Source: Tepidamorphus gemmatus (GTDB taxonomy: Bacteria; Pseudomonadota; Alphaproteobacteria; Rhizobiales; Tepidamorphaceae). Taken from it: DNA of 64,000 nt. Location: contig NZ_SMAK01000006.1 in NCBI RefSeq assembly GCF_004346195.1, positions 186,001-250,000 on the forward strand, written 5' to 3'. Position 1 is the first letter of the stretch. Every line of letters starts with the position of its first letter. The notes under the pieces are model-generated. The model did no database searches and was not told the origin of the DNA. It saw only the letters and a program-made list of their open reading frames with translations. This document shows, one piece after another, positions 40,917 through 53,884 of this stretch. The translations under genes and the position numbers were made by a program.

Positions 40917-42050
40917 TCAGTAGGCCGCCTCGATCAGCGCGGTGACAGCGGCCCGGTCGAGCGGGCGCGGATTGGTCGGCCCCGAATGGTCGGCGAGCGC
41001 GCCATCGATCACCGGCGGGATCGCCTGGCGCGGAAGCCCCATCTGCGACAGCGATCGAGGCATGCCGATCTCGCGGTTGAGGCCATCGAACCAGGCGGCG
41101 AGATCGGTGCCTGCGGCCAGCCCCATCGCCGCGCGCATCGCCTCGTACTTGGCGCCCGCAGCCGCCTCGTTGAAGCGCAGCACGTGCGGCAGCAGCACCG
41201 CGTTCAGCGTGCCATGGTGGAGCGAGGGCTCCTCAAGCCCGCCGAGCGGATGGGAAATCGCGTGAATCGCGCCAAGCCCCTTCTGGAAGGTGAGGCCGCC
41301 ATGCAGGGCAGCGATCATCATCTCGCGCCGCGCCTCCTTGTCCGAGCCGTCTGCGACGGCGCGGCGCAGATGGCGGACGGCGCGTCCCAGACCGTCGAGC
41401 GCGATGGCGTCGGCAGGCGGGTTGAACTTCGGCGACAGGAAGGTCTCGACACAGTGGCTGATCGCATCCATGCCGGTCGCGGCGGTGAGGCCGGGCGGCA
41501 GGCCATAGGTCAGCTCCGGATCGCACACCGCCCGCTTCGGGAACAGATGCGGCGAGATGAAGCCGAGCTTGCGGCCGTCATCGAGGGTGATCAGCGCAGC
41601 GCGCCCGACCTCCGAACCGGTGCCAGCCGTCGTCGGTATGGCGATCACCGGGGCGACGGCGGCGGTGATCCGCGGCACGCCGCCAAGGATCGCCGCGTAG
41701 GATTCGAAGGCACCGTCATGGGTTGCCATCAGCGCCACGGCCTTGGCGAGGTCGATCGGCGAGCCACCGCCGACCGCGACGATGCCGTCGGCTCCGCACG
41801 CCCGGTACAGCTCGAGCGCCTTGCGCGCCGCCCGCTCGGTCGGATTCGACGGCGTGTCGTCGAACACCCCCGCTATGCGGTCCTGCGACATCGCGTCCGT
41901 CACGCGCTCGACCAGGCCCGCACCGACGACGCCCTTGTCGGCCACGATCAGCGCGCGCCGGATTCCCAGCTGGTCGAGATCCTCGCCGATCTCGGCAACG
42001 CAGCCCTCGCCGAAGCGGATGGTGGTGAGATAGGTGATCAGTGAAGACAT
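40917..42050 (-). CDS. Iron-containing alcohol dehydrogenase
   Basis: 377-residue group III (Fe-type) NAD(P)-dependent dehydrogenase. The nucleotide-binding part has GVVGAGLVERV and VGGGSPIDLAKAVAL; metal-binding His residues lie in GMDAISHCVETFLSP and GAIHAISHPLGG. Substrates in the family range from ethanol and 1,3-propanediol to gamma-hydroxybutyrate. ATG 42050 follows GGAG by 5 bp and starts the conserved MSSLITYLTTIRFGEG. It is downstream of the LldD-type oxidase on the same strand (196 bp gap), suggesting a shared catabolic theme. Confidence 0.9.
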   Translation of the reverse strand: MSSLITYLTTIRFGEGCVAEIGEDLDQLGIRRALIVADKGVVGAGLVERVTDAMSQDRIAGVFDDTPSNPTERAARKALELYRACGADGIVAVGGGSPIDLAKAVALMATHDGAFESYAAILGGVPRITAAVAPVIAIPTTAGTGSEVGRAALITLDDGRKLGFISPHLFPKRAVCDPELTYGLPPGLTAATGMDAISHCVETFLSPKFNPPADAIALDGLGRAVRHLRRAVADGSDKEARREMMIAALHGGLTFQKGLGAIHAISHPLGGLEEPSLHHGTLNAVLLPHVLRFNEAAAGAKYEAMRAAMGLAAGTDLAAWFDGLNREIGMPRSLSQMGLPRQAIPPVIDGALADHSGPTNPRPLDRAAVTALIEAAY

Positions 42051-42246: not shown

Positions 42247-43398
42247 TCAGTCCTGCCGGCCTTCGTGGTAGAGGTTCGTCCGGCTCAGATCGGCGACGCG
42301 GCGCTCGCCGCAAAGCGCCATGGTGATGTCCAGCTCCTTGCGGATGATGTCGAGGGCCAAGCTGACCCCGGGCCCGCCCATGGCGGCAAGACCGTAGATG
42401 TAGGCGCGACCGATGTGGACGCCCTTCGCGCCCAGACAGAGGGCCTTCAGCACGTCCTGACCGGAGCGCACACCGCCGTCCATGTGGATCTCGATGCGAT
42501 CGCCGACCGCATCGACGATCTCCGGCAGCACCGAGATCGAGGACGGTGCACCGTCGAGCTGTCGGCCGCCATGGTTGGAGACGCTGATCGCATCGGCGCC
42601 GGTGTCGAGCGCCCTGCGCGCATCCTCCACGTCGAGAATGCCCTTGAGGATCAGCGGGCCGCCCCAACGCTGCTTGACCCACTCGATGTCCTTCCAGCTC
42701 AGCCGCGGATCGAACTGCTGGCTGGTCCAGGAGGACAGCGAGGAGAGGTCGTCGACACCCTTGGCGTGGCCGACGATGTTGCCGAAGGTTCGGTTCCTCG
42801 TGCGCAGCATCCTGAGGCACCAGCCCGGCCTGGTGGCCATCTGCCAGAGATGCTTGGGCGTGAACTTCGGCGGTGTCGACAGGCCGTTGCGGATGTCGTT
42901 GTGGCGCTGGCCGAGAATCTGCAGGTCGAGCGTCAGGACCAGCGCCGAGCAGCCGGCCGCCTTGGCGCGGTCGATGAGGCTGCCGACGAAATCACGGTCG
43001 CGCATGACGTAGAGCTGGAACCAGAACGGCGTCGTGGTGGCAGCGGCCACGGTTTCGATCGAGCAGATGCTCATCGTCGACAACGTATAGGGTACGCCGG
43101 CCGCCGCCGCGGCCCGCGCCGCCGCGATCTCACCGTCGGGATACTGCATGCCGGTCAGCCCGACCGGGGCCAGCACCACCGGCATCGAGACCCGCTGCCC
43201 GACGAGCGTCGTCTCGAGCGAGCGATCCGACATGTCGACGGCAACGCGCTGGCGCAACTTGATCCTGGCGAAATCTTCGGAATTGGCGCGGTAGGTGCTT
43301 TCCGTCCAGGCGCCGGAATTCGCGTAGTCGAAGAACATCTTGGGGACACGGCGGCGCGCCAGTCGCTCCAGGTCCCGGATCTCGCAGACGACCGCCAT
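42247..43398 (-). CDS. FMN-dependent alpha-hydroxy acid dehydrogenase (LldD-like)
   Basis: 383-residue member of the L-lactate dehydrogenase/glycolate oxidase family, oxidising 2-hydroxy acids to 2-oxo acids at the inner face of the membrane. TIM-barrel signatures: FFDYANSGAWTE, APVGLTGMQYPDGE, FQLYVMRDRDF, ILKGILDVEDA and the catalytic SNHGGRQLDG (base His276), then HMDGGVRSGQDVLKALCLGA. GGAGGA 8 bp before ATG 43398 supports the start. It diverges from a TakP-like TRAP operon, hinting that the imported substrate is a hydroxy or keto acid. L-lactate is the most likely substrate but mandelate-type activity is not excluded. Confidence 0.9.
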   Translation of the reverse strand: MAVVCEIRDLERLARRRVPKMFFDYANSGAWTESTYRANSEDFARIKLRQRVAVDMSDRSLETTLVGQRVSMPVVLAPVGLTGMQYPDGEIAAARAAAAAGVPYTLSTMSICSIETVAAATTTPFWFQLYVMRDRDFVGSLIDRAKAAGCSALVLTLDLQILGQRHNDIRNGLSTPPKFTPKHLWQMATRPGWCLRMLRTRNRTFGNIVGHAKGVDDLSSLSSWTSQQFDPRLSWKDIEWVKQRWGGPLILKGILDVEDARRALDTGADAISVSNHGGRQLDGAPSSISVLPEIVDAVGDRIEIHMDGGVRSGQDVLKALCLGAKGVHIGRAYIYGLAAMGGPGVSLALDIIRKELDITMALCGERRVADLSRTNLYHEGRQD

Positions 43399-43749: not shown

Positions 43750-44904
43750 ATGATGACTCGCATCACGGCAGAAACCAGGGCTGACGCGCCGAAGAGCACC
43801 AGCCGCCGCCGCTTCCTCGCCGGCGCAGCGACCGTGGCCGGCGGTGCGGCTGCGACCGTGGCGATGCCGAACGTTTCGCGCGCGCAGACGATCACGCTGA
43901 AGATGCAGTCCTCGTGGACGGCGTCGGACATCTTCCAGGAAATGGCCCAGCAGTATGTCGACCGCGTCGAGCAGATGTCCGGCGGGCGGCTCAAGATCGA
44001 TCTTCTGCCGGCTGGCGCCGTGGTCGGCGCGTTCCAGGTCCAGGACGCCTGCCACGACGGCATCCTCGACTGCGCCCACACCGTGACGGTGTACTGGTAT
44101 GGGAAGAACAAGGCCGCCTCGCTGTTCGGAACCGGCCCGATCTTCGGCGGCAATGCCCAGCACATGCTGGCGTGGATCTATGCCGGCGGCGGACAGGAAC
44201 TCTATGACGAGCTGATCCAGGACATTCTCGGCCTCAATCTGGTCGGTTTCTTCGCCACACCGATGCCGACCCAGCCGCTCGGCTGGTTCAAGACCGAGAT
44301 CAAGTCCGTCGACGAGCTGAAGGGCCTGAAGTACCGCACGGTCGGCCTCGCCGCGGACCTGTTCCAGGAGATGGGCGTGTCGGTGACCCAGCTTCCCGGC
44401 GGCGAGATCGTGCCGGCGATGGAGCGCGGCGTCATCGACGCGTTCGAGTTCAACAATCCGACCTCGGACAGCCGGTTTGGCGCGCAGGACGTTGCCAAGA
44501 ACTACATGCTCGGCTCGTTCCACCAGGCCAACGAGTTCTTCGAGATCATCTTCAACAAGGATCGCTTCGATTCGCTGCCGGAGGACCTGCAGGCGATCCT
44601 GAAGTACGGCGTCGAGGCCGCGAACACCGCCAACTACGCGCTGGCGATGGACAACTACTCGGCCGACCTTCAGAAGCTGATCGACATGGGCGTCAACGTG
44701 GTGCGCACGCCGCAGTCGATCATGGAGGCCCAGATGGAAGCCTGGGACAAGCTGCTGCCGGGCCTCGAGGCGGACCCCTTCTTCAAGCGGGTGGTGGAGA
44801 GCCAGAAGGCATGGGTGGAACGGGTCGCCTACTACGACCTGATGAATGCCGCCGACTTCAAGATGGCCTACAAGCACCACTTCCCGGGCCGCATCACGTT
44901 CTGA
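43750..44904 (+). CDS. TRAP transporter solute-binding protein, TakP/lactate-like
   Basis: 384-residue periplasmic DctP-type receptor. The N-terminus has a twin-arginine motif SRRRFLAG (residues 18-25), so export is probably via Tat, followed by cleavage near VSRA. Conserved TRAP features are LPAGAVVGAFQVQDAC, HTVTVYWYGKNKAA, the carboxylate-binding Arg in LKGLKYRTVGLAAD, and PGGEIVPAMERGVIDAFEF. These match the TakP/mannitol-chloroaromatic subgroup, whose members bind 2-oxo acids or lactate. It opens a five-gene operon with dctQ, dctM, an amidase and a 55-aa protein. Confidence 0.92.
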   Translation: MMTRITAETRADAPKSTSRRRFLAGAATVAGGAAATVAMPNVSRAQTITLKMQSSWTASDIFQEMAQQYVDRVEQMSGGRLKIDLLPAGAVVGAFQVQDACHDGILDCAHTVTVYWYGKNKAASLFGTGPIFGGNAQHMLAWIYAGGGQELYDELIQDILGLNLVGFFATPMPTQPLGWFKTEIKSVDELKGLKYRTVGLAADLFQEMGVSVTQLPGGEIVPAMERGVIDAFEFNNPTSDSRFGAQDVAKNYMLGSFHQANEFFEIIFNKDRFDSLPEDLQAILKYGVEAANTANYALAMDNYSADLQKLIDMGVNVVRTPQSIMEAQMEAWDKLLPGLEADPFFKRVVESQKAWVERVAYYDLMNAADFKMAYKHHFPGRITF

Positions 44905-44934
44905 GCGGGACGGCAATTGGCTGATGCCGCACAG

Positions 44935-44958
44935 GGGGCGGCGCTCATGCGCCGCCCC
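44935..44958 (+). other. Intercistronic hairpin after TRAP binding-protein gene 1
   Basis: GGGGCGGCGC and GCGCCGCCCC pair over 10 bp around the tetraloop TCAT, 30 bp after the binding-protein stop and 200 bp before dctQ. There is no U-run, so it is more likely an mRNA-stabilising or partial-attenuation element that keeps the receptor in excess over the permease. A similar hairpin follows the second TRAP receptor gene. Confidence 0.7.
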
Positions 44959-45156
44959 GTCGATTGAGCAGACGATGCGTCGGCGCGGCAGCGGCGGGCA
45001 ACGTCGCGACACCGGCTCTCGAGTGTGGACGGGCGGGCATATCCGGGCGTCCGGGCCGGGCTTACAATGGCGGCGACAGCGGCGCCTGGTGACCCCTGGG
45101 CAGCATCCTGGGCCATCGGACGACGCCGTGTCGCGGGAGGGAGCGGCCGTTCGAGG

Positions 45157-45795
45157 ATGGTTCAGGCGATCCTGTTGATCGACAAGATCTCCGCATGGTT
45201 CGGCAAGGGCTTTGCCTGGCTGATCATGGTGATGACGCTCGGTGTCGGTTACGAGGTCTTCGTCCGATACTTGCTGCGCAGCCCCACGCCCTGGGCCTAT
45301 GATGTCAATTACATCTGCTACGGCGCCCTGTTCATGATGGGCGGGGCGTACACGCTGTCGCGCGACGGCCATGTGCGCGGCGACTTCCTGTATCGGCTCT
45401 GGAAGCCGCGCACGCAGGCGACGGTGGAGTTCATCCTGTATTTCCTGTTCTTCTTTCCCGGCGTAATCGCGCTGGTGGTGGCCGGATGGAAATATGCCGG
45501 TCGCTCCTGGCGGTTCCTGGAGGTATCGAGCTTCAGCCCGGCCGGCATCCCCATCTTCCAGTTCAAGACCATCATCGTGGCCGCGGGCGTGCTGCTGTTC
45601 CTGCAAGGCATCGCCCAGATCATGCGCTGCCTCGTGTGCATGCGCACAGGCGCCTGGCCACGTCACCTCGAGGATGTCGAGGAACTCGAGAAGCTGCTCC
45701 TGGACGAGGAACATCGCGAGGCGCTGCTGCACGGTGACGAGGCGGTGGACATCGTCCGTCCGGAGGGCGACCAGACGACCGGAGGCACGCGCTGA
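45157..45795 (+). CDS. TRAP transporter small permease (DctQ)
   Basis: 212-residue four-helix small membrane subunit. Hallmarks: WLIMVMTLGVGYEVFVRYLL in helix 1-2, AYDVNYICYGALFMMGGAYTLSRDGHVRGD in the central region, and an acidic cytosolic C-terminus (LEDVEELEKLLLDEE). It connects the receptor to DctM. ATG 45157 was chosen because the residues before it are non-hydrophobic Arg/Gly-rich translation. Stop and dctM start overlap (TGATG). Confidence 0.9.
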   Translation: MVQAILLIDKISAWFGKGFAWLIMVMTLGVGYEVFVRYLLRSPTPWAYDVNYICYGALFMMGGAYTLSRDGHVRGDFLYRLWKPRTQATVEFILYFLFFFPGVIALVVAGWKYAGRSWRFLEVSSFSPAGIPIFQFKTIIVAAGVLLFLQGIAQIMRCLVCMRTGAWPRHLEDVEELEKLLLDEEHREALLHGDEAVDIVRPEGDQTTGGTR

Positions 45796-47216
45796 TGAGC
45801 GATCCCTATGTCGCGGTGATGATGCTGGGGATCTTCATCCTCGTCATCCTGCTCGGCTTTCCCATCGCCTTCACGCTGATGGCGATGGGTGTCGGCTTCG
45901 GCTACTACGCCTACCATGACGCCGAACGCCTGCAGTTCATCATGCGGCGACTCGCCGGCGAGGACCCCAGCGCGCTCGACAGCTTCCTCGCGTGGGTCAG
46001 CGCACTGATCAACAACCGCATCTTCGATCTGCTCGTCAACCAGACCTACTCGGTCATGCAGAACGACGTGCTGACCGCGGTGCCGCTGTTCCTGTTCATG
46101 GGCTATGTCGTCGAGCGGGCCAATATCGTGTCCCGCCTGTTCGAATCCCTCAACATCGCCGCCCGACGTCTGCCCGGCTCGATGGCGATCGCAGCGCTCG
46201 TCACCTGCGCGCTGTTCGCCACGGCCACGGGAATCGTCGGTGCCGTGGTGACGCTGATGGGACTGCTGGCGCTACCGGCGATGCTGAAGGCGCGTTACGA
46301 TACGAGCTACGCGGCCGGCGTGATCTGCGCCGGAGGCTGCCTCGGCATCCTGATCCCGCCCTCGATCATGCTGATCGTCTACGCGGCGACGTCCGGCGTC
46401 TCGATCGTCAAGCTCTATGCCGGTGCGCTCCTGCCCGGCTTCCTGCTCGCCGGCCTCTACATCGTCTACGTGACCGCACGGGCGATGCTCAATCCGAGCC
46501 TCGCCCCCAAGCCGCGCGAGGAGGACATCGGCACGGTCAGCGGGACGCAGGTCGCGATGATGCTGGTCACCTCCTTCGTGCCGCTGGCCGCCCTCATCCT
46601 GTCGGTGCTCGGGGCGATCCTGTTCGGCCTCGCCACGCCGTCGGAGGCTGCCGCAGTGGGGGCGCTCGGCGGGCTGCTGCTGGCTGCGATCTATCGCTCG
46701 CTGACCTGGGATCGTCTGAAGGAATCGGTCTATCTGACCGTGCGCACCTCGGCGATGGTCTGCTGGCTGTTCGTCGGTTCGTGGACCTTTTCCTCGGTGT
46801 TCTCCTATCTCGGCGGCGAGAAGCTGATCGAGGAGTTCGTGCTGGGCCTGGAGCTGTCGCCGCTCATGTTCCTGATCCTGGCACAGGTGATCATCTTCGC
46901 GCTCGGCTGGCCGCTGGAATGGAGCGAGATCATCATCATCTTCGTACCGATCTTCCTGCCGCTGCTACCGCATTTCGGCATCGATCCGCTGTTCTTCGGC
47001 ATCCTGATCGCGCTCAACCTGCAGACGTCGTTCCTGACGCCACCGATGGCGATGTCGGCCTACTATCTGAAGGGCATCGCGCCGCCGCAGGTGCAGCTGA
47101 TGCAGATCTTCGCGGGCGTAATGCCCTATCTCGGCATGATCCTGCTGGCGATGGTGATCCTCTACGTCTTTCCGCAGATCGCCCTGGGCCTGCCGGAGTA
47201 TTTCTATGGTCGCTAG
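45795..47216 (+). CDS. TRAP transporter large permease (DctM)
   Basis: 473-residue large permease that carries out sodium-coupled translocation, with about twelve helices plus re-entrant hairpins. Signatures are PLFLFMGYVVERANI, GTATGIVGAVVTLMGLLALP-like LFATATGIVGAVVTLMGL, GGCLGILIPPSIMLIVYA and LQTSFLTPPMAMSAYYLKG. The insert around residues 40-85 (AGEDPSALDSFLAWVSAL) is longer than in minimal DctM proteins and typical of the TakP-associated subgroup. The last 11 bp overlap the amidase gene. Confidence 0.94.
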   Translation: MSDPYVAVMMLGIFILVILLGFPIAFTLMAMGVGFGYYAYHDAERLQFIMRRLAGEDPSALDSFLAWVSALINNRIFDLLVNQTYSVMQNDVLTAVPLFLFMGYVVERANIVSRLFESLNIAARRLPGSMAIAALVTCALFATATGIVGAVVTLMGLLALPAMLKARYDTSYAAGVICAGGCLGILIPPSIMLIVYAATSGVSIVKLYAGALLPGFLLAGLYIVYVTARAMLNPSLAPKPREEDIGTVSGTQVAMMLVTSFVPLAALILSVLGAILFGLATPSEAAAVGALGGLLLAAIYRSLTWDRLKESVYLTVRTSAMVCWLFVGSWTFSSVFSYLGGEKLIEEFVLGLELSPLMFLILAQVIIFALGWPLEWSEIIIIFVPIFLPLLPHFGIDPLFFGILIALNLQTSFLTPPMAMSAYYLKGIAPPQVQLMQIFAGVMPYLGMILLAMVILYVFPQIALGLPEYFYGR

Positions 47217-48573
47217 CAGCGCCAGACGGCGGGCCGATCCCGGCATGACCGCACTCGGCGTGGCCGAGACGGCCCGCCTCGTCAGCAACGGCGAGGCGAA
47301 GGCCGAGGACGTCACCCGCGCCTATCTCGACCGTATCGCAGAGGTCGATGCGGAGGTCGGCGCCTGGGCGCATGTCGACGCCGACTACGCCTTGGAGCAG
47401 GCCCGCGCGCTCGACCGGCGCCGTGCGGCGGGGCGGCCGCTCGGGCCGTTGCACGGGGTGCCGATCGGCATCAAGGACATCATCGACGCCGCCGGTCTCC
47501 CCTGCGAGCGCGGCACGCCGATCGAGGCCGGTCGGCGGCCGACACGGGATGCGACGGCAGTGGCACGGCTGCGGGAGGCCGGCGCCGTCATCCTCGGCAA
47601 GACGGTGACCACCGAACTCGCCGTCTACACGCCCGGCAATACGCGCAATCCGCGCGATCTCGCACGAACCCCGGGCGGCTCCTCCTCGGGCTCGGCCGCC
47701 GCTGTCGCGGCATGCATGGTGCCTGGCGCGCTCGGCACGCAGACCAACGGCTCGGTGATCCGCCCGGCCTCGTACTGCGGCATCGTCGGCTACAAGCCAA
47801 GCCGCGGGCTGGTGTCGCGCAGCGGGGTGCTGACCCAGTCGCCACTGTTCGATACGGTCGGCACCATGGCGCGATCCATCGAGGATGTGGCCCTGATCGG
47901 CGATGCGATCGCCGGTTACGACCCCGCCGACGAGGCGATGCGGCCGTCCGGACCGCCGCGGCTCGCCGAAATCGCCACCAGCCCCGTACCGGTGAAGCCG
48001 CAGCTCGCCATCGTGCGCACGCCGGTGTGGGAGCGTGCCGAACCCGATCTCGTCGAGGCCTTCGCGGAACTGGCAGACATCCTCGGCGCGCAAGCCGACA
48101 GCTTCGATCTTCCCGAGCCGTTCGACCGGGCGCTGGAGCTGCACCGGACCGTTCTCCACGCCGACATCGCCCGCAGTTTCGCCCGCTATTGGGAAAGCGG
48201 CCGCGACCGGCTGAGCGAGCGTCTGCAGGCCATCATCGAGGACGGTCGGACGATCCGCGCGGTCGACTACATTCTCGCCAACGATTGGGTGCGTGTCCTC
48301 AATGCCGGCCTCGAACAGATCTTCGAGCGCTATGACGCCATCGTGACGCCGGCGACGACCGGCCAGGCGCCGGCCTCGCTGGAAACGACCGGCGATCCGG
48401 CCTTCTGCACCACCTGGACCTATTGCGGCCTCCCGGCGGTGACCGTGCCGCTGCTGGCAGGCAGTGACGGCATGCCGATCGGTGTCCAGCTTGTCGGGCG
48501 ACACGGCCAGGACGGCCGGCTGCTGCGGACGGCACGCTGGCTCAGCGAGCGTGTGGCGGAGGAAACGCGATGA
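47206..48573 (+). CDS. Amidase signature family enzyme
   Basis: 455-residue amidase with the Ser-cisSer-Lys triad: Lys90 in GIKDII, cis-Ser159 in GGSSSGSAAAVA and nucleophile Ser183 in TQTNGSVIRPASYCG. Soluble, no signal peptide. It overlaps the dctM stop by 11 bp and its own stop overlaps the next small gene, so it is an integral part of the TRAP operon. This suggests that the imported carboxylate carries an amide that is hydrolysed in the cytosol. It is not GatA: there is no gatB/gatC and the C-terminus differs. Exact substrate unknown. Confidence 0.9.
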   Translation: MVASSARRRADPGMTALGVAETARLVSNGEAKAEDVTRAYLDRIAEVDAEVGAWAHVDADYALEQARALDRRRAAGRPLGPLHGVPIGIKDIIDAAGLPCERGTPIEAGRRPTRDATAVARLREAGAVILGKTVTTELAVYTPGNTRNPRDLARTPGGSSSGSAAAVAACMVPGALGTQTNGSVIRPASYCGIVGYKPSRGLVSRSGVLTQSPLFDTVGTMARSIEDVALIGDAIAGYDPADEAMRPSGPPRLAEIATSPVPVKPQLAIVRTPVWERAEPDLVEAFAELADILGAQADSFDLPEPFDRALELHRTVLHADIARSFARYWESGRDRLSERLQAIIEDGRTIRAVDYILANDWVRVLNAGLEQIFERYDAIVTPATTGQAPASLETTGDPAFCTTWTYCGLPAVTVPLLAGSDGMPIGVQLVGRHGQDGRLLRTARWLSERVAEETR

Positions 48574-48737
48574 TCAGCGACCGTATCCTGGCTGTTCTCA
48601 CCCTCGCCCTGGTCGCCGCCTTCCTCGGCGTCCTGCTGGTGTTCGTGCGGCGGCTCGATCTCGGACTCGTGCTGGTGGCGGTCGTCATGATGATCGCCTA
48701 TGACTTCTACCGACAGCTCGGGCGCCCGCGCGCCTGA
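48570..48737 (+). CDS. 55-residue two-helix membrane protein
   Basis: A 55-codon reading frame that overlaps the amidase stop by 4 bp (ATGA), with the product beginning MISDRILAVLTLALVAAFLG and ending FYRQLGRPRA. Two hydrophobic helices (about 6-26 and 31-46) are separated by a short basic loop RRLDLG. Translational coupling to the amidase and a GGAGG about 10 bp upstream support that it is a real gene. I do not recognise a family; a small accessory subunit of the TRAP permease is one possibility. Confidence 0.68.
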   Translation: MISDRILAVLTLALVAAFLGVLLVFVRRLDLGLVLVAVVMMIAYDFYRQLGRPRA

Positions 48738-48749
48738 GGCGTGTTCCGC

Positions 48750-48797
48750 GTTCCCTGCCCAGACCGCGCTTCCTGCCCAGATGCTTCCTGCCCAGAT
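48750..48797. repeat. Triple direct repeat upstream of TRAP operon 2
   Basis: GCTTCCTGCCCAGAT occurs twice in perfect head-to-tail copies (48768-48782 and 48783-48797), preceded by a third copy with three mismatches (48750-48764, GTTCCCTGCCCAGAC). The array lies 167-214 bp before the second TRAP receptor gene, between the two operons. A 15-bp period places copies about one and a half helical turns apart. It could be a regulator array or simple slippage-derived repeat. Confidence 0.75.
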
Positions 48798-48963
48798 AAT
48801 GTGCGGCAACCTGCCGTCTCCGCGGCTGCGCCGCCGAAATAAATGGCTGGCAAAGGCCGTCTGCTTCGGTCTAGTTTGACGGACACGCGCATGAAGCGCG
48901 ACGCGGACAAAGAACGCCGCGACCGGGCAATTGCGCGGTACTTCCAGGGAGGGAATGCATCCG

Positions 48964-49992
48964 ATGAAAAGACTTATTGCGTCTTCCGTGCTGGCCGTAT
49001 CCGTCGGCCTGTGCGGCGCGGCCCAGGCTGAAACCTGGAACATGCAGTCGACCTATCCGGGCTCGCTGACCCAGCTGGGCACGCTCGGCAAGCGCATTGC
49101 CGAGCAGGTTACCCTCGTCACTGATGGCAAGGTCGAACTCGTCTTCCAGGAGCCCGGCGCGCTGGTACCCGCCCTCGAGGTGTTCGACGCGGTCGCTTCT
49201 GGCGCCGTCGAGGCCGGCTGGTCGACACCCGGCTACTGGGCGGGCAAGGTGCCGTCGCTGCAGCTGTTCGCAGCCGTCCCCTTCGGTCCGCAGGCGGGCG
49301 AATATCTCGCCTGGATCAAGTTCGGCGGCGGCAAGGAACTGTTCGAGGAGATCTACCACAAGTACGGCATTCACGGCATCCACTGTGGCATCATCGCGCC
49401 GGAAGCCTCGGGCTGGTTCAAGAAGGAGATCAATTCGCCCGCCGACCTGCAGGGCCTGAAGATGCGGTTCTTCGGGCTCGGCGCCAAGGTCATGGAAAAG
49501 ATGGGCGTCTCGACGCAGCTCCTGGCCGGCGGTGACATCTTCCCGGCGCTGGAACTCGGCACCATCGACGCGACCGAGTTCTCGATGCCGGCAATCGACC
49601 TCAATCTGGGCTTCTATCAGGTCGCCAAGTACTACTACTTCCCGGGATGGCATCAGCAGTCGACCCTGTTCGACCTGATGATCAACCTCGACCTGTGGGA
49701 AAGCCTCGACGAGGTGACGAAGGCGCAGATCGAGGCGGTGTGCGACGCCGGCATCACCTATGGTCTGGCCGAAGGCGAGGCCATCCAGTTCGCCGCGCTC
49801 GAGGAGCTCGAATCCAAGGGCGTGAACATCCGCCAATGGTCGCCCGAGATGCTGGCGGCGTTGGAGGCGGCCTGGGACGAGGTGATCGCAGAACAGGTTG
49901 CCGCCGATGCCGACTTCGCGCGAGCCTGGGAATCCCTCTCCGCGTTCCGCGACCGCTACAAGCGCTGGAAGGAACTCGGCTACCTGAACTAG
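48964..49992 (+). CDS. TRAP transporter solute-binding protein 2
   Basis: 342-residue periplasmic receptor with a Sec signal peptide (MKRLIASSVLAVSVGLCGAAQA). Conserved TRAP blocks: ALVPALEVFDAVASGAVEAGWS, WFKKEINSPADLQGLKMRFFGLGA (carboxylate Arg), LLAGGDIFPALELGTIDATEFS. It belongs to the same broad subgroup as the first receptor but is clearly divergent and uses Sec rather than Tat. ATG 48964 follows an AGGGAGGG site at good spacing; an ATG at 48955 is too close to it. First gene of a three-gene TRAP operon. Confidence 0.92.
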   Translation: MKRLIASSVLAVSVGLCGAAQAETWNMQSTYPGSLTQLGTLGKRIAEQVTLVTDGKVELVFQEPGALVPALEVFDAVASGAVEAGWSTPGYWAGKVPSLQLFAAVPFGPQAGEYLAWIKFGGGKELFEEIYHKYGIHGIHCGIIAPEASGWFKKEINSPADLQGLKMRFFGLGAKVMEKMGVSTQLLAGGDIFPALELGTIDATEFSMPAIDLNLGFYQVAKYYYFPGWHQQSTLFDLMINLDLWESLDEVTKAQIEAVCDAGITYGLAEGEAIQFAALEELESKGVNIRQWSPEMLAALEAAWDEVIAEQVAADADFARAWESLSAFRDRYKRWKELGYLN

Positions 49993-50008
49993 TCGGCCGT
50001 CCGTCGGC

Positions 50009-50037
50009 AGCACGGTCCCGGCCGCCGGGACCGTGCT
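50009..50037 (+). other. Intercistronic hairpin after TRAP binding-protein gene 2
   Basis: A 13-bp perfect stem (AGCACGGTCCCGG paired with CCGGGACCGTGCT) closes a CCG triloop, 17 bp after the receptor stop. No U-run follows. It sits in the same place as the hairpin in the first TRAP operon and overlaps a GTG at 50033 that could otherwise start dctQ, arguing for the ATG at 50066. Confidence 0.75.
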
Positions 50038-50065
50038 CCCCGTCCTGATCGCACAGGTCATCGAC

Positions 50066-51076
50066 ATGGGTACGTTGAGCGCCGTGGTCGCCGTCCTGTC
50101 GGCGTTCGCCGTGGTGATGGCGCCATTTGGTCTGCACTGGATCGCATTGGTCGTCGGATTCCTCGCGCTGTTCGGCGCGGCCCTTTGGGGCAGCCGCCCG
50201 GGCTACTTCCTCACCGCGGCCGCGCTGATGGCAGTATCGGCGCCAGTCGACGACGCCTTCGAGATGACGCGCGCCGAGACGACCGCGCTGCGCCGGGCGG
50301 TGGACGCTGGCGAGCCGGGCGCGGCCACCATTCTGGCCGTGCACGATGTCACCGCGCCGATCGCCGGCTACCTGATCGTTGCCTGTCTGCTGCTCGTGGC
50401 GCTGGCCGTCCGTGTCGCCGTGCGGCGCGCACCGGATGGTGGATGGCACAAGTTCCTCGCGGAAAGTGACGCACTCGGCGCGCTGACCGTGAACATCGGC
50501 AAGGCGGCATCGTTCCTGTACGTGCCGATGATCATCATCATCATCTATGACGTCACCCAGCGTAAGATGCTGGATTTCTGGCCCGCCTTCTCGCAGACCG
50601 AATGGTATCGGATCTTCTCCTCGACCAAGCTGCAGGAGGCCGAATGGCACCTGCACGCCATCCTGTTCGTGATGTGCTTCGGCTTTGCCTATATCCGTGA
50701 CGCGCATGTGCGTATCGAACTGGTCCGCGACCGGCTGGAGCCACGTGCCCGGGTGTGGATCGAACTCATCGGCTGCTGCTTCTTCCTGGTCGCCTACTGC
50801 TACGTCGTCATGCGCTACGGCTACGACTTCGCCCAGAAGTCCTACGAGATCATGGAGGGCTCCTCGGCGCAGACCGGGCTGCCACTGCGCTTCCTCATCA
50901 AGGGCTTCCTGCCGCTCGGCTTTCTCGTGCTGGCGCTCGCAGGCGTCTCGGTGGCGGTGAAATGCCTGGTCTACCTGTTCGGACCGGCGTGCCTGCGTCA
51001 GAAGGCCGGCTATTACGCCGGCACCCACCATGCCGACGTGCCGCAGGACCTGCGGCCGGCGCAGACCGATCGCTGA
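50066..51076 (+). CDS. TRAP transporter small permease with N-terminal extension
   Basis: 336-residue DctQ-type subunit, much longer than the usual 160-220. The N-terminal part (about 1-125) has three hydrophobic helices around a charged, probably external loop (DDAFEMTRAETTALRRAVDAGEPG by region); the DctQ core follows (from about 135: LTVNIGKAASFLYVPMIIIIIY, then HAILFVMCFGFAYIRDAHVRIE, then QKSYEIMEGSSAQTGLPLRF). The start is uncertain (50066 or GTG 50033). The extension resembles that of large DctQ proteins in TakP-type systems; its role is unknown. Confidence 0.85.
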   Translation: MGTLSAVVAVLSAFAVVMAPFGLHWIALVVGFLALFGAALWGSRPGYFLTAAALMAVSAPVDDAFEMTRAETTALRRAVDAGEPGAATILAVHDVTAPIAGYLIVACLLLVALAVRVAVRRAPDGGWHKFLAESDALGALTVNIGKAASFLYVPMIIIIIYDVTQRKMLDFWPAFSQTEWYRIFSSTKLQEAEWHLHAILFVMCFGFAYIRDAHVRIELVRDRLEPRARVWIELIGCCFFLVAYCYVVMRYGYDFAQKSYEIMEGSSAQTGLPLRFLIKGFLPLGFLVLALAGVSVAVKCLVYLFGPACLRQKAGYYAGTHHADVPQDLRPAQTDR

Positions 51077-51091
51077 GGCTGGGCCACGACC

Positions 51092-52474
51092 ATGGCAATG
51101 TTCGTCGAGCTTCTGCCGTTGTGGATGTTCGTCGCGCTGGCGGTGCTGCTGTTCACCGGCTATCCGGTAGCCTTCATCCTCGGCGGTGTCGGCCTCGCCT
51201 TTGCGCTGATCGGCGATCTGTTCGGCGTGTTCCGGCTCCAGCAGCTCGCCCTCATTCCGCTGCGGATCTACGGCGGGACGATGGAAAGTCCGGTGCTGGT
51301 CGCCATACCCATGTTCATCTTCATGGGGACGATGCTGGAGAAGTCAGGCGTCGCACGCGACCTGTTGCAGGCGCTGCAGGTTCTGCTGCGGCGCGTGCCC
51401 GGCGGCCTGGCGCTGTCGGTGACGCTGATGGGCACCATCATGGCCGCGACCACCGGCATCATCGGCGCCTCGGTGGTGATGATGACGCTGCTGGCACTGC
51501 CGGTGATGCTCGAGCGGCGCTACAACATGCCGCTTGCCACCGGCACGATCGCCGCATCGGGCACGCTCGGGATCCTGATCCCGCCCTCGATCATGCTGGT
51601 CATCATGGCCGACCTGCTGTCGGTTCCCGTCGGCACCGTGTTCGTCGGCGCGATCGTGCCCGGCCTGCTGCTGTCGCTTCTCTACGCGGGCTACATCTGG
51701 ACACTCTGCCATTTGAAGCCCGACCTCGCGCCGCCGCTGCCCGACGACATCGGACCCACGACGCGCGGCGAATTCTGGGCGATGATACTGCGCAGCTTCG
51801 TCCCGCCGATCGCACTGATCGTCCTCGTGCTTGGCTCGATCTTCGCGGGCTTCGCCACGCCGACCGAGGCGGCCGGCGTCGGCGCCGGCGGCTCGGTCCT
51901 GCTCGCGGCGATCAACCGCCAGCTGTCCTGGAAGGTGTTCGTCGAGGTCTGCCAGCGCTCGGCGCTGACCGGCGGCATGCTGTTCGGCATCTTCGTCGGC
52001 GCCACCGCCTTCTCCTTCGTGTTCCGCACACTGGGCGGCGAGCATCTGATCGTCGATTTCATCAAGGCGACCGGCGTCGGGCCGTGGAGCATCCTGCTGG
52101 TGCTGATGCTGATGATCTTCCTGCTCGGCTTCTTCTTCGACTGGATCGAGATCACCCTGATCGTGCTGCCGGTGTTCGCGCCGATCATCGGCCTGCTCGA
52201 TTTCGGCGATCACGTCGGGACATGGGAGGGAGTGGCGAAGGCCAACATCATCTGGTTCCTGGTGCTGGCGGCGGTGAACCTGCAGACCTCGTTCCTGACG
52301 CCGCCCTTCGGATTCGCGCTGTTCTACATGAAGGGCGTCGCGCCGCCCGGCGTCACGATCCAGCAGATCTACCGGGGCATCATTCCGTTCGTCACGCTGC
52401 AGGTGGTCGGCCTTGCCCTGTGTATCGCCTTTCCCGCGCTCGTGCTCTGGCTGCCGAGCATGCTGCTGCGCTGA
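51092..52474 (+). CDS. TRAP transporter large permease (DctM) 2
   Basis: 460-residue DctM with about twelve helices. Signatures include YPVAFILGGVGLAFALIGDL, IPMFIFMGTMLEKSGVARDLL, TTGIIGASVVMMTLLALPVML, GTLGILIPPSIMLVIMADLL and LQTSFLTPPFGFALFYMKG. Completes the second TRAP system, 15 bp after dctQ. A candidate terminator follows the stop. Confidence 0.94.
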   Translation: MAMFVELLPLWMFVALAVLLFTGYPVAFILGGVGLAFALIGDLFGVFRLQQLALIPLRIYGGTMESPVLVAIPMFIFMGTMLEKSGVARDLLQALQVLLRRVPGGLALSVTLMGTIMAATTGIIGASVVMMTLLALPVMLERRYNMPLATGTIAASGTLGILIPPSIMLVIMADLLSVPVGTVFVGAIVPGLLLSLLYAGYIWTLCHLKPDLAPPLPDDIGPTTRGEFWAMILRSFVPPIALIVLVLGSIFAGFATPTEAAGVGAGGSVLLAAINRQLSWKVFVEVCQRSALTGGMLFGIFVGATAFSFVFRTLGGEHLIVDFIKATGVGPWSILLVLMLMIFLLGFFFDWIEITLIVLPVFAPIIGLLDFGDHVGTWEGVAKANIIWFLVLAAVNLQTSFLTPPFGFALFYMKGVAPPGVTIQQIYRGIIPFVTLQVVGLALCIAFPALVLWLPSMLLR

Positions 52475-52534: not shown

Positions 52535-53884
52535 ATGAGAGATGGCGGATCGACCGCAACGGGAGTGGACGACGCAGCTGCCGGCGGCGCCGCTGCGCAG
52601 GCGGCCAGGCAGCCGGCTGCCGGATTCGAGCCGCACCGGCACAGGGACGCCGCGGTCGGCGAGGTGCACACGCGACCGTTCCGTCCGGTGGAGCCGCCGC
52701 GCGTGCTGCATCACATGGCGTTCGAATCGCGCTTCGACGACGGCAGCGCCTACGAATCGCTCGCCCGCTTCTGTCGCGCGCACGGCGCGCTGCCGCCAGA
52801 TCCGGCCGCGCGACATCATATTGTCGCGCTTGGTGGCGCCGAGCTGCGCTGGGAGCTCCACACCGAGTTCACGACCATGACGCTGTCGGTTGCCCCTCCG
52901 CCAGGCGACCCCTTCGCAGCCCCAAACATCGCCTCGCTCGCTGCCTTCCTGCCGAAGGCGCCCGGTCCGCTGATCGTGGCGACGCGGCTCGCGCTGATCC
53001 ACGCGGGCGAAGATGTTCCGGACCTCGGCATGTTCGACCCGGCGAGTCTGAGCGCCTCCGAGGTCGACGGCGGCGCGGCCATCGTCGCCACCGACTTCAG
53101 GCCGGACGCTTCCGGCTTTACCCGCATTCTCGTCGCCAGCCGCGACCTGTCCCCCGGTCGGGCCGGGGCCCTCGTGCAGCGCCTGCTCGAGATCGAGACC
53201 TACCGGACGCTGACCCTGCTCGGACTGCCCGAGGCGCGCCGTCTCGGACCGGTTCTCGACACAATCGAAGCGGAGCTCACCGGGCTGATCCGCCAGATGC
53301 GGACCGAGGCAGGTTTCGACTCGAGCCGCGAGCTGCTGGCGCGGCTGATCGACCTGGCCGCGGGCATCGAAGCGGAGGCGGCGGCGGCCTCCTACCGGTT
53401 CGGGGCGACGCGGGCCTACTGGGAGATCGTCGAGCAGCGCATACTGTCGATCCGCGAGGAGCGGGTGCAGGGCTTCGGAACGCTCGAAAGCTTCCTTGCC
53501 CGGCGCATCAAGCCGGCGCTGAGAACCTGCGAGACCGTCGAAGGCCGGCTCGACGATCTCGCGCAGAAGCTCGCCCGCACCTCGAACCTGCTGCGCACGC
53601 GGGTCGATATCGAGCTCGAAAGCCAGAACCGCGACCTGCTCGACTCCATGAACCGGCGTGCCCGCCAGCAATTGCGGCTGCAGCAGACGGTCGAGGGCCT
53701 CTCGGTGGCGGCCGTCAGCTACTATGTCGTCGGTCTGGTCGGCTATCTGGCGAAGGGCGGCGAGACGATACTGGGCCTGCCCTTCGATCCCACCGTCGCC
53801 ACGGCGGCCGCGGTCCCGGTCTCGGTGCTGGTGGTGTGGCTCGTGGTCCGGCGCATCCGGCGCGGACATCGCGAGGGGGATTGA
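52535..53884 (+). CDS. DUF3422 family membrane protein
   Basis: 449-residue DUF3422 protein. The family N-terminal motif VHTRPFRPVEPPRVLHHM is followed by RWELHTEFTTMTL; a long helical/coiled-coil middle (about 250-385) leads to two C-terminal membrane helices (about 395-435: LSVAAVSYYVVGLVGYLAKG and AAAVPVSVLVVWLVV) and a basic tail. Predicted to be anchored in the inner membrane with the large domain in the cytosol. Function is unknown. It converges with the MarR gene with 15 bp between. Confidence 0.85.
   Translation: MRDGGSTATGVDDAAAGGAAAQAARQPAAGFEPHRHRDAAVGEVHTRPFRPVEPPRVLHHMAFESRFDDGSAYESLARFCRAHGALPPDPAARHHIVALGGAELRWELHTEFTTMTLSVAPPPGDPFAAPNIASLAAFLPKAPGPLIVATRLALIHAGEDVPDLGMFDPASLSASEVDGGAAIVATDFRPDASGFTRILVASRDLSPGRAGALVQRLLEIETYRTLTLLGLPEARRLGPVLDTIEAELTGLIRQMRTEAGFDSSRELLARLIDLAAGIEAEAAAASYRFGATRAYWEIVEQRILSIREERVQGFGTLESFLARRIKPALRTCETVEGRLDDLAQKLARTSNLLRTRVDIELESQNRDLLDSMNRRARQQLRLQQTVEGLSVAAVSYYVVGLVGYLAKGGETILGLPFDPTVATAAAVPVSVLVVWLVVRRIRRGHREGD

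Follow-up and report, generated by a model that had tools for sequence, protein, structure and literature searches.

A conserved two-helix small membrane protein genetically linked to one TakP-like TRAP permease in Tepidamorphus gemmatus and other proteobacteria

Tripartite ATP-independent periplasmic (TRAP) transporters are defined as three-part systems. The closest described relatives of the transporter studied here are the TakPQM-type systems, represented by TakP of Rhodobacter sphaeroides and the lactate receptor TTHA0766. We analyzed a 64,000-nucleotide stretch of DNA from Tepidamorphus gemmatus (contig NZ_SMAK01000006.1, positions 186,001 to 250,000), referred to below as the window. In this stretch a TRAP transporter (TRAP1) is followed by an amidase gene, by a gene for a 55-residue small membrane protein (SMP) and then by a second TRAP transporter (TRAP2). 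TRAP1 has the DctP, DctQ and DctM components of the TakPQM type, and its receptor retains the carboxylate arginine and some of the cation site. Our survey of related loci shows that the SMP is genetically linked to the TRAP1 permease independently of the amidase.

The TRAP1 genes lie on the + strand. DctP1, a TakP-like solute receptor (43753..44904; PF03480, E=5e-37), carries a twin-arginine signal (twin-arginine translocation motif TIGR01409) and has an alternative ATG at 43750. It is followed by the 212-residue small permease subunit DctQ1 (45157..45795; PF04290, E=1e-22), the large permease subunit DctM1 (45795..47216; PF06808, E=7e-77), a malonamidase-like hydrolase of the amidase signature family (47206..48573; PF01425, E=4e-93, 313.5 bits) and the SMP (48570..48737), a two-helix protein that falls into no Pfam or NCBIfam family. 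The amidase start overlaps the end of DctM1 by 11 bp, and the amidase stop shares an ATGA with the SMP start. A sequence-only reading of the stretch had described these overlaps and two DctPQM systems in tandem on the + strand, and all of this was confirmed at the same place and strand. Both transporters are complete, with PF03480, PF04290 and PF06808 above cutoff in each. DctQ1 closes with an acidic tail of about 45 residues (45649-45792), a possible docking site. Because the 3.8-Mb genome has 27 DctP matches and hence a large TRAP repertoire, the presence of two TRAP systems is by itself unsurprising; the surprise is the conservation around TRAP1.

In a first pass, amidase relatives were taken from 61 genomes (its own included) and from the best 80 of 486 contig loci, and the flanks of the best relatives were read. 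A TRAP1-type DctM stood immediately 5' of the amidase in 47 of 121 cases (L numbers denote loci). The 47 include the window and count the duplicates L054/L132 twice; among the 121, the duplicates L040/L121 are likewise counted twice. An SMP profile, built from 33 small two-segment open reading frames (ORFs) behind these amidases and run on all reading frames of the loci, matched at 40 of the 47 DctM-amidase loci, window included. Three of the remaining seven lie at contig ends (L059, L067, L136); the others are L056, L058, L065 and L123. The SMP is located between DctM1 and the amidase in L124 and L129, and another gene intervenes in the set of L049. Among amidase loci lacking TRAP1, only L044, whose contig begins inside the amidase, and L040/L121 gave an SMP match better than E=2.

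Since the first-pass loci had been picked by their amidase, a survey free of that choice was then made in 385 genomes of the class, with separate searches for the 40-row SMP alignment A1, the amidase and DctM1 (E limits of 1e-95 for the amidase and 1e-90 for DctM1). DctM1 matches showed a clean gap, 33 scoring at least 537 bits and the next 360; a 353-bit fragment with 75% identity in genome G371 is also an orthologue. Of the 33 TRAP1 permeases, 29 have the SMP no farther than 3 kb away, 27 of them on the same strand, and 26 have the amidase within that distance. Neither was found within 3 kb at any of the 26 next-best DctM places that were tested. The genome-level Fisher test for the linkage of SMP and permease gave P=1.7e-33 with genomes treated as independent. 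The linkage of TRAP1, amidase and SMP is not due to chance, and the proposal of the sequence-only reading that the amidase and the 55-residue gene belong with TRAP genes is borne out by these neighborhoods.

Sampling of the phylum extended this result. Among 398 genomes, 20 carry the SMP; the loci of the 12 that were new were read, and TRAP1 is present in 11 of them, the twelfth (L237) beginning inside the amidase. The tally of TRAP1 rows that have a long permease came to 80, counting the window and leaving out the duplicates L132 and L121: 65 have both SMP and amidase, six the SMP only, two the amidase only and four neither, and three (L059, L067 and L136, at contig ends) stop too soon to be scored for the SMP. 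The named SMP loci span Alpha-, Beta- and Gammaproteobacteria, SAR11 included, and the pairing of TRAP and amidase is conserved from SAR11 to soil bacteria. DctM1 matched 13 plasmid records, four of which were read; a Qingshengfaniella plasmid has the order P-Q-M-amidase-SMP.

The SMP follows the transporter and not the amidase. The class survey held 53 amidase places, of which 27 adjoin TRAP1 and all 27 have the SMP; at the other 26 it is found three times (P=4e-12). These three exceptions are G371, with just a fragment of the permease among the matches, and two places in G085, where the contig begins inside DctM1. Both genomes are among the six of 35 SMP genomes that have no paired permease match, together with G176, G212, G100 and G182; the last three give weak SMP matches (E of 2e-4 to 1e-3) with no component nearby. 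DctP1-DctQ1-DctM1-SMP operons that have no amidase occur in two lineages, f186 (L192, L194, L195) and f23 (L239-L241). Both branch from within the amidase-bearing rows of the permease tree, in a 21-row group with a Shimodaira-Hasegawa-like approximate likelihood ratio (SH-aLRT) support of 95, and two changes are needed on the tree for the SMP as compared with four for the amidase. The order P-Q-M-SMP without an amidase is also seen in Rhizobium johnstonii 3841 on pRL12 (RL_RS35410, RL_RS35405, RL_RS35400 and the 60-residue hypothetical protein RL_RS35395) and in R. leguminosarum WSM1689, where the SMP frame is absent from the incomplete gene table of PLSDB. In a Tepidamorphus metagenome (L040, 6307-13276) the TRAP1 genes are gone between LldD and the amidase, the amidase is open and the SMP is split over two frames. 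The earlier grouping of the 55-residue protein with the amidase is not supported. The amidase, for its part, is a frequent companion of TRAP1 and would be a dispensable cytoplasmic extra.

AlphaFold2, run on A1, predicts that the SMP forms a helical hairpin of helices 2-26 and 29-51, with a mean predicted local distance difference test score (pLDDT) of 91. The SMP of the window had no match in Pfam or NCBIfam, and 40 members searched against both gave only scattered weak matches, the commonest being DUF2244 with three members and a best E of 8e-4. The ratio of nonsynonymous to synonymous substitution rates (dN/dS) was 0.07-0.61 in 16 of 17 SMP pairs, not all of them independent, and undefined in one, a pattern that shows purifying selection. 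No fusion of the SMP to another component was seen among 731 frames with any profile match. Of the three named plasmid records that yield a profile match, two annotate the SMP as a coding sequence, and no description of the SMP or of a TRAP-amidase operon was found in the open-licence papers searched. By these databases and this literature, the SMP is a so far unnamed small membrane protein, conserved and linked with a single TRAP subfamily.

What could such a protein do? The gene linkage argues that the SMP is an accessory fourth subunit or a regulator of one TakP-type TRAP subfamily, and we regard this as reasonably probable. It would be placed in the inner membrane beside DctQ1-DctM1 and would stabilize or regulate that permease. 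A stronger statement, which we put forward more tentatively, is that within one branch, found in Alpha-, Beta- and Gammaproteobacteria with SAR11 among them, TRAP transporters may be four-part, with a hairpin subunit of 50-80 residues in the DctQM complex that is needed for uptake or tunes it.

Several observations weigh against assigning the SMP to the permease in this way. Gene linkage is not equal to physical binding, and an SMP-DctQM complex is a prediction. Some TRAP1 operons have neither SMP nor amidase, namely those of G262, G354 and G431, which belong to one genus, and of G095 (loci L232-L235), and a named Indioceanicola plasmid (L259) carries P-Q-M alone. The more distant TRAP1 loci L056, L058 and L204-L206 also have no SMP, and L065 and L123 have an amidase and room for the SMP without containing it. 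These operons imply that the transporter can work without the SMP, unless the SMP is encoded elsewhere or lies past the reach of the profile. The SMP is on the opposite strand in L196, L197 and L198, and in L193 (G176) its neighbors are a dehydrogenase and a fragment of an amidase, the 14.5 kb read containing no TRAP1. The SMP also has a higher dN/dS than DctM1 in all 15 pairs for which both values exist. The permease tree was built quickly, its deep branches are weak and it contains some short rows and long branches, and L040 is a metagenome assembly whose frameshift may be an error.

The receptor bears on what TRAP1 may carry. The nearest solved chains to DctP1 are 4yzz, 4yic, 7ug8 and 2hzk, and DctP1 and DctP2 alike have their closest solved relatives among TakP, keto-acid and lactate receptors. 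Their probable place in this 2-oxo/2-hydroxy-acid branch agrees with the earlier expectation of carboxylate receptors. The TakP account lists Tyr100, Gln156, Arg177, Glu214, Trp215 (main chain) and Glu240 (PMC1839085). DctP1 keeps the equivalents of Y100, Q156, R177 and E214 in 73 of 73 sequences; within the ligand and cation set Tyr100, Gln156, Arg177, Glu214 and Glu240, four of five are retained and Glu240 is replaced by Gln. The changes E240Q, P243E and V245F are each fixed in 73 of 73, amidase present or not. Several positions in the pocket are aromatic or larger than in TakP, and 10 of 15 are invariant in systems with and without the amidase, the other five being variable. Since the pocket is alike in both kinds of system, all DctP1 systems probably have a common core ligand, one that would not be defined by an amide group. 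DctP1 would bind a carboxylate through its TakP-like Arg/Gln/Glu site and pass it to the permease.

The gene neighbors point in a similar direction. Of the 79 TRAP1 loci other than the window, 21 have a D-2-hydroxyacid dehydrogenase no more than 6 kb from the transporter, four a GlcD-type enzyme and three an LldD-type enzyme, so that 22 have at least one 2-hydroxyacid dehydrogenase; none was found at 71 control amidase loci, all of which come from the SAR116-rich set L040-L159 and were judged by score limits of our own setting. The receptor residues and the recurring dehydrogenases suggest a 2-hydroxy, 2-oxo or hydroxy-aromatic carboxylate as the substrate of TRAP1. In this scheme the amidase would hydrolyze an amide related to the imported acid, and the neighboring 2-hydroxyacid dehydrogenases would oxidize the product.

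The amidase is assigned to the amidase signature family by PF01425 and by the Lys-cisSer-Ser triad K90, S159 and S183. Its best solved match is malonamidase E2 (1ock, E=5e-62), and R186 aligns to residue 158 of that enzyme, an arginine that we take to be a carboxylate binder. All four residues are invariant in 121 of 121 aligned rows, in which two loci are represented twice. We considered R186 as a mark of TRAP-linked specificity and rejected it, as it occurs in every row, TRAP-linked or not. Amidases of this kind are found in other settings as well. A tandem amidase pair follows TRAP1 in L196 (4066-7000) and L197 (767-3647), with the SMP on the opposite strand between the two. In L068 and L070-L080, many of them labelled SAR116, a related amidase stands beside a DctP gene on the other strand and a long permease of DctM type that belongs to a different kind of TRAP, with no SMP.

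The sequence-only reading went further and proposed that TRAP1 imports a carboxylate bearing an amide, that the amidase frees a 2-hydroxy acid from it, and that LldD and an iron-containing alcohol dehydrogenase (Fe-ADH) encoded on the other strand oxidize this acid. The frequent nearness of amidase and permease, the malonamidase-like character of the enzyme with its aligned arginine, and the dehydrogenases that recur at TRAP1 loci and not at the controls all favor it. However, the ten invariant pocket residues are unchanged in amidase-less systems, R186 is equally invariant in amidases away from TRAP1, and LldD and Fe-ADH show no general linkage to TRAP1: both adjoin it only in the window and in L120, LldD being found also in two SAR11 loci. 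We consider this route, taken as a whole, unlikely, although it fares best among the alternatives. Pantothenate, oxamate and N-lactoyl amino acids are further candidate substrates on general grounds.

Somewhat less probable still is that TRAP1 imports aromatic acids resembling protocatechuate, with the hydroxyacid enzymes as side associations. The aromatic or enlarged pocket positions are in line with it, and so is a report on R. leguminosarum 3841, which describes pRL120498-500 as highly induced by protocatechuate in one array replicate (PMC3333776). In the rhizosphere of pea, according to the same report, a pRL120500 mutant colonized with a relative index of 0.72 (PMC3333776). These genes are very probably the TRAP1 operon of strain 3841 (L256), because by tag arithmetic the DctP gene of that operon is number 493 on pRL12, the one further DctP match being at 433 kb. 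Against an aromatic substrate, the induction comes from a single microarray replicate, binding of such acids is a prediction, and SAR11 TRAP1 loci carry LldD, GlcD and 2-hydroxyacid dehydrogenase genes. No catabolic partner common to L192-L195 and L239-L241 was seen when ORF starts were read by eye, with no profile scan.

As for the SMP, it might instead be a membrane anchor or chaperone of the amidase, keeping the enzyme at the transporter to cleave an amide on entry. The SMP does come right after the amidase in most loci and is near every TRAP1-linked amidase of the class sample. Its persistence without an amidase in the two nested lineages and in R. johnstonii, its scarcity at amidases unpaired with a TRAP1 permease match and the open amidase beside a frameshifted SMP in L040 make this role improbable, and a partnership with the amidase was rejected as first choice. 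That the 55-residue ORF is no gene, or a passenger with no part in transport, is very improbable: it is short, fast evolving and absent from some TRAP1 operons, but the hydrophobic hairpin recurs across three proteobacterial classes, is under purifying selection and is annotated in plasmid records.

The accessory role at the permease remains our preferred reading of the SMP, and the rest of the locus can be described apart from it. TRAP2 comprises the receptor DctP2 (48964..49992, +; PF03480, E=2e-43), whose best solved match is TakP 2hzk, the small subunit DctQ2 (50033..51076, +; PF04290 at residues 166-309) and the large subunit DctM2 (51092..52474, +; PF06808, E=4e-66). DctQ2 has an N-terminal extension of about 160 residues with hydrophobic segments (50033-50500), the first 156 residues being free of any Pfam match; TRAP2 DctQ ORFs of similar length occur in L248, L250, L251 and L253, and not in L249. 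A DUF3422 protein (52535..53884, +; PF11902, E=1e-150) lies 3' of the TRAP2 permease in the window and in the five relatives tested for it (L248-L251 and L253; L252, L254 and L255 were left out), and it may belong to lactate or glycolate uptake. Eight loci with TRAP2 relatives were read. Profiles identify several neighbors, each at a single locus: L250 has LutB, a LutA-like protein and a GntR regulator, L249 has proteins of the LUD-domain and GlcD-like kinds, L251 has GlcF, and L252 has an LldD-like protein scoring below the model cutoff; the GlcD profile also matches in L248, L250, L251 and L253. L040 has TRAP2 and no TRAP1. TRAP2 is best read as a separate importer of the lactate/glycolate type behind TRAP1. 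In the 79 other TRAP1 loci, many of them cut off before this could be judged, the twin arrangement in the order of the window recurs only in L120 of the same family and L231 of another family of the class; in L231 (3438-12611) a D-2-hydroxyacid dehydrogenase stands between the SMP and TRAP2.

Two divergent genes lie upstream of TRAP1 on the - strand, their start codons being likely ones chosen by inspection; the ranges used in searches differ from these by 6 bp. The LldD-type flavin mononucleotide (FMN) 2-hydroxyacid dehydrogenase (42247..43398; PF01070, E=3e-143) belongs to the broader subfamily NF008398 by score (445.9 bits, cutoff 376) and falls below the L-lactate dehydrogenase model NF033901 (398.8 bits, cutoff 550). 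The Fe-ADH (40917..42050; PF00465) is 4-hydroxybutyrate-dehydrogenase-like by its match to model NF058672 (560.9 bits, cutoff 500). The earlier view of LldD, Fe-ADH and both transporters as one general set is not upheld, since the two enzymes accompany TRAP1 so rarely and TRAP2 elsewhere stands with lactate/glycolate genes and DUF3422. A scan of the locus found no promoter-like sites and three terminator-like sites, close to the shuffle mean of 2.0.

How does this locus compare with described systems? The receptor of TarPQM of Rhodopseudomonas palustris binds aromatic carboxylates (PMC3610893), and we liken TarPQM to TRAP1 only as a TRAP system. Unlike TakPQM-type transporters, TRAP1 has the extra conserved two-helix gene, usually an amidase, and the three fixed receptor changes. 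If the proposed role is correct, a small subunit in one TRAP branch would alter the way in which transporters of this kind are reconstituted and assayed, and the R. johnstonii 3841 operon would allow the roles of SMP and amidase to be separated. The conserved TRAP-amidase pairing points to a possible uncharted uptake route for a carboxylate.

Malonamidase E2 of Bradyrhizobium japonicum shares with the window amidase the Lys-cisSer-Ser triad and the residue-158 arginine; the window enzyme is only a relative by sequence and is set in a TRAP operon. The sequence-only reading stated that it knew no described pathway with just this set of genes; an amidase together with an LldD-type enzyme does have a described precedent. 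Mandelamide degradation in Pseudomonas employs the amidase mdlY and the LldD-type dehydrogenase mdlB on a 2-hydroxy acid and its amide, and is not known to include a TRAP or an SMP. The window resembles this mandelamide-mandelate pathway in its two enzyme families, whereas its LldD has its highest score as an L-lactate dehydrogenase. Transporters are modulated by small membrane proteins such as KdpF, AcrZ and MgtS, and a protein of this kind is not known from a TRAP system. As a short hydrophobic partner of a larger permease, the SMP would resemble these three by analogy and, if so, would be one more example of a small protein acting on a transporter.

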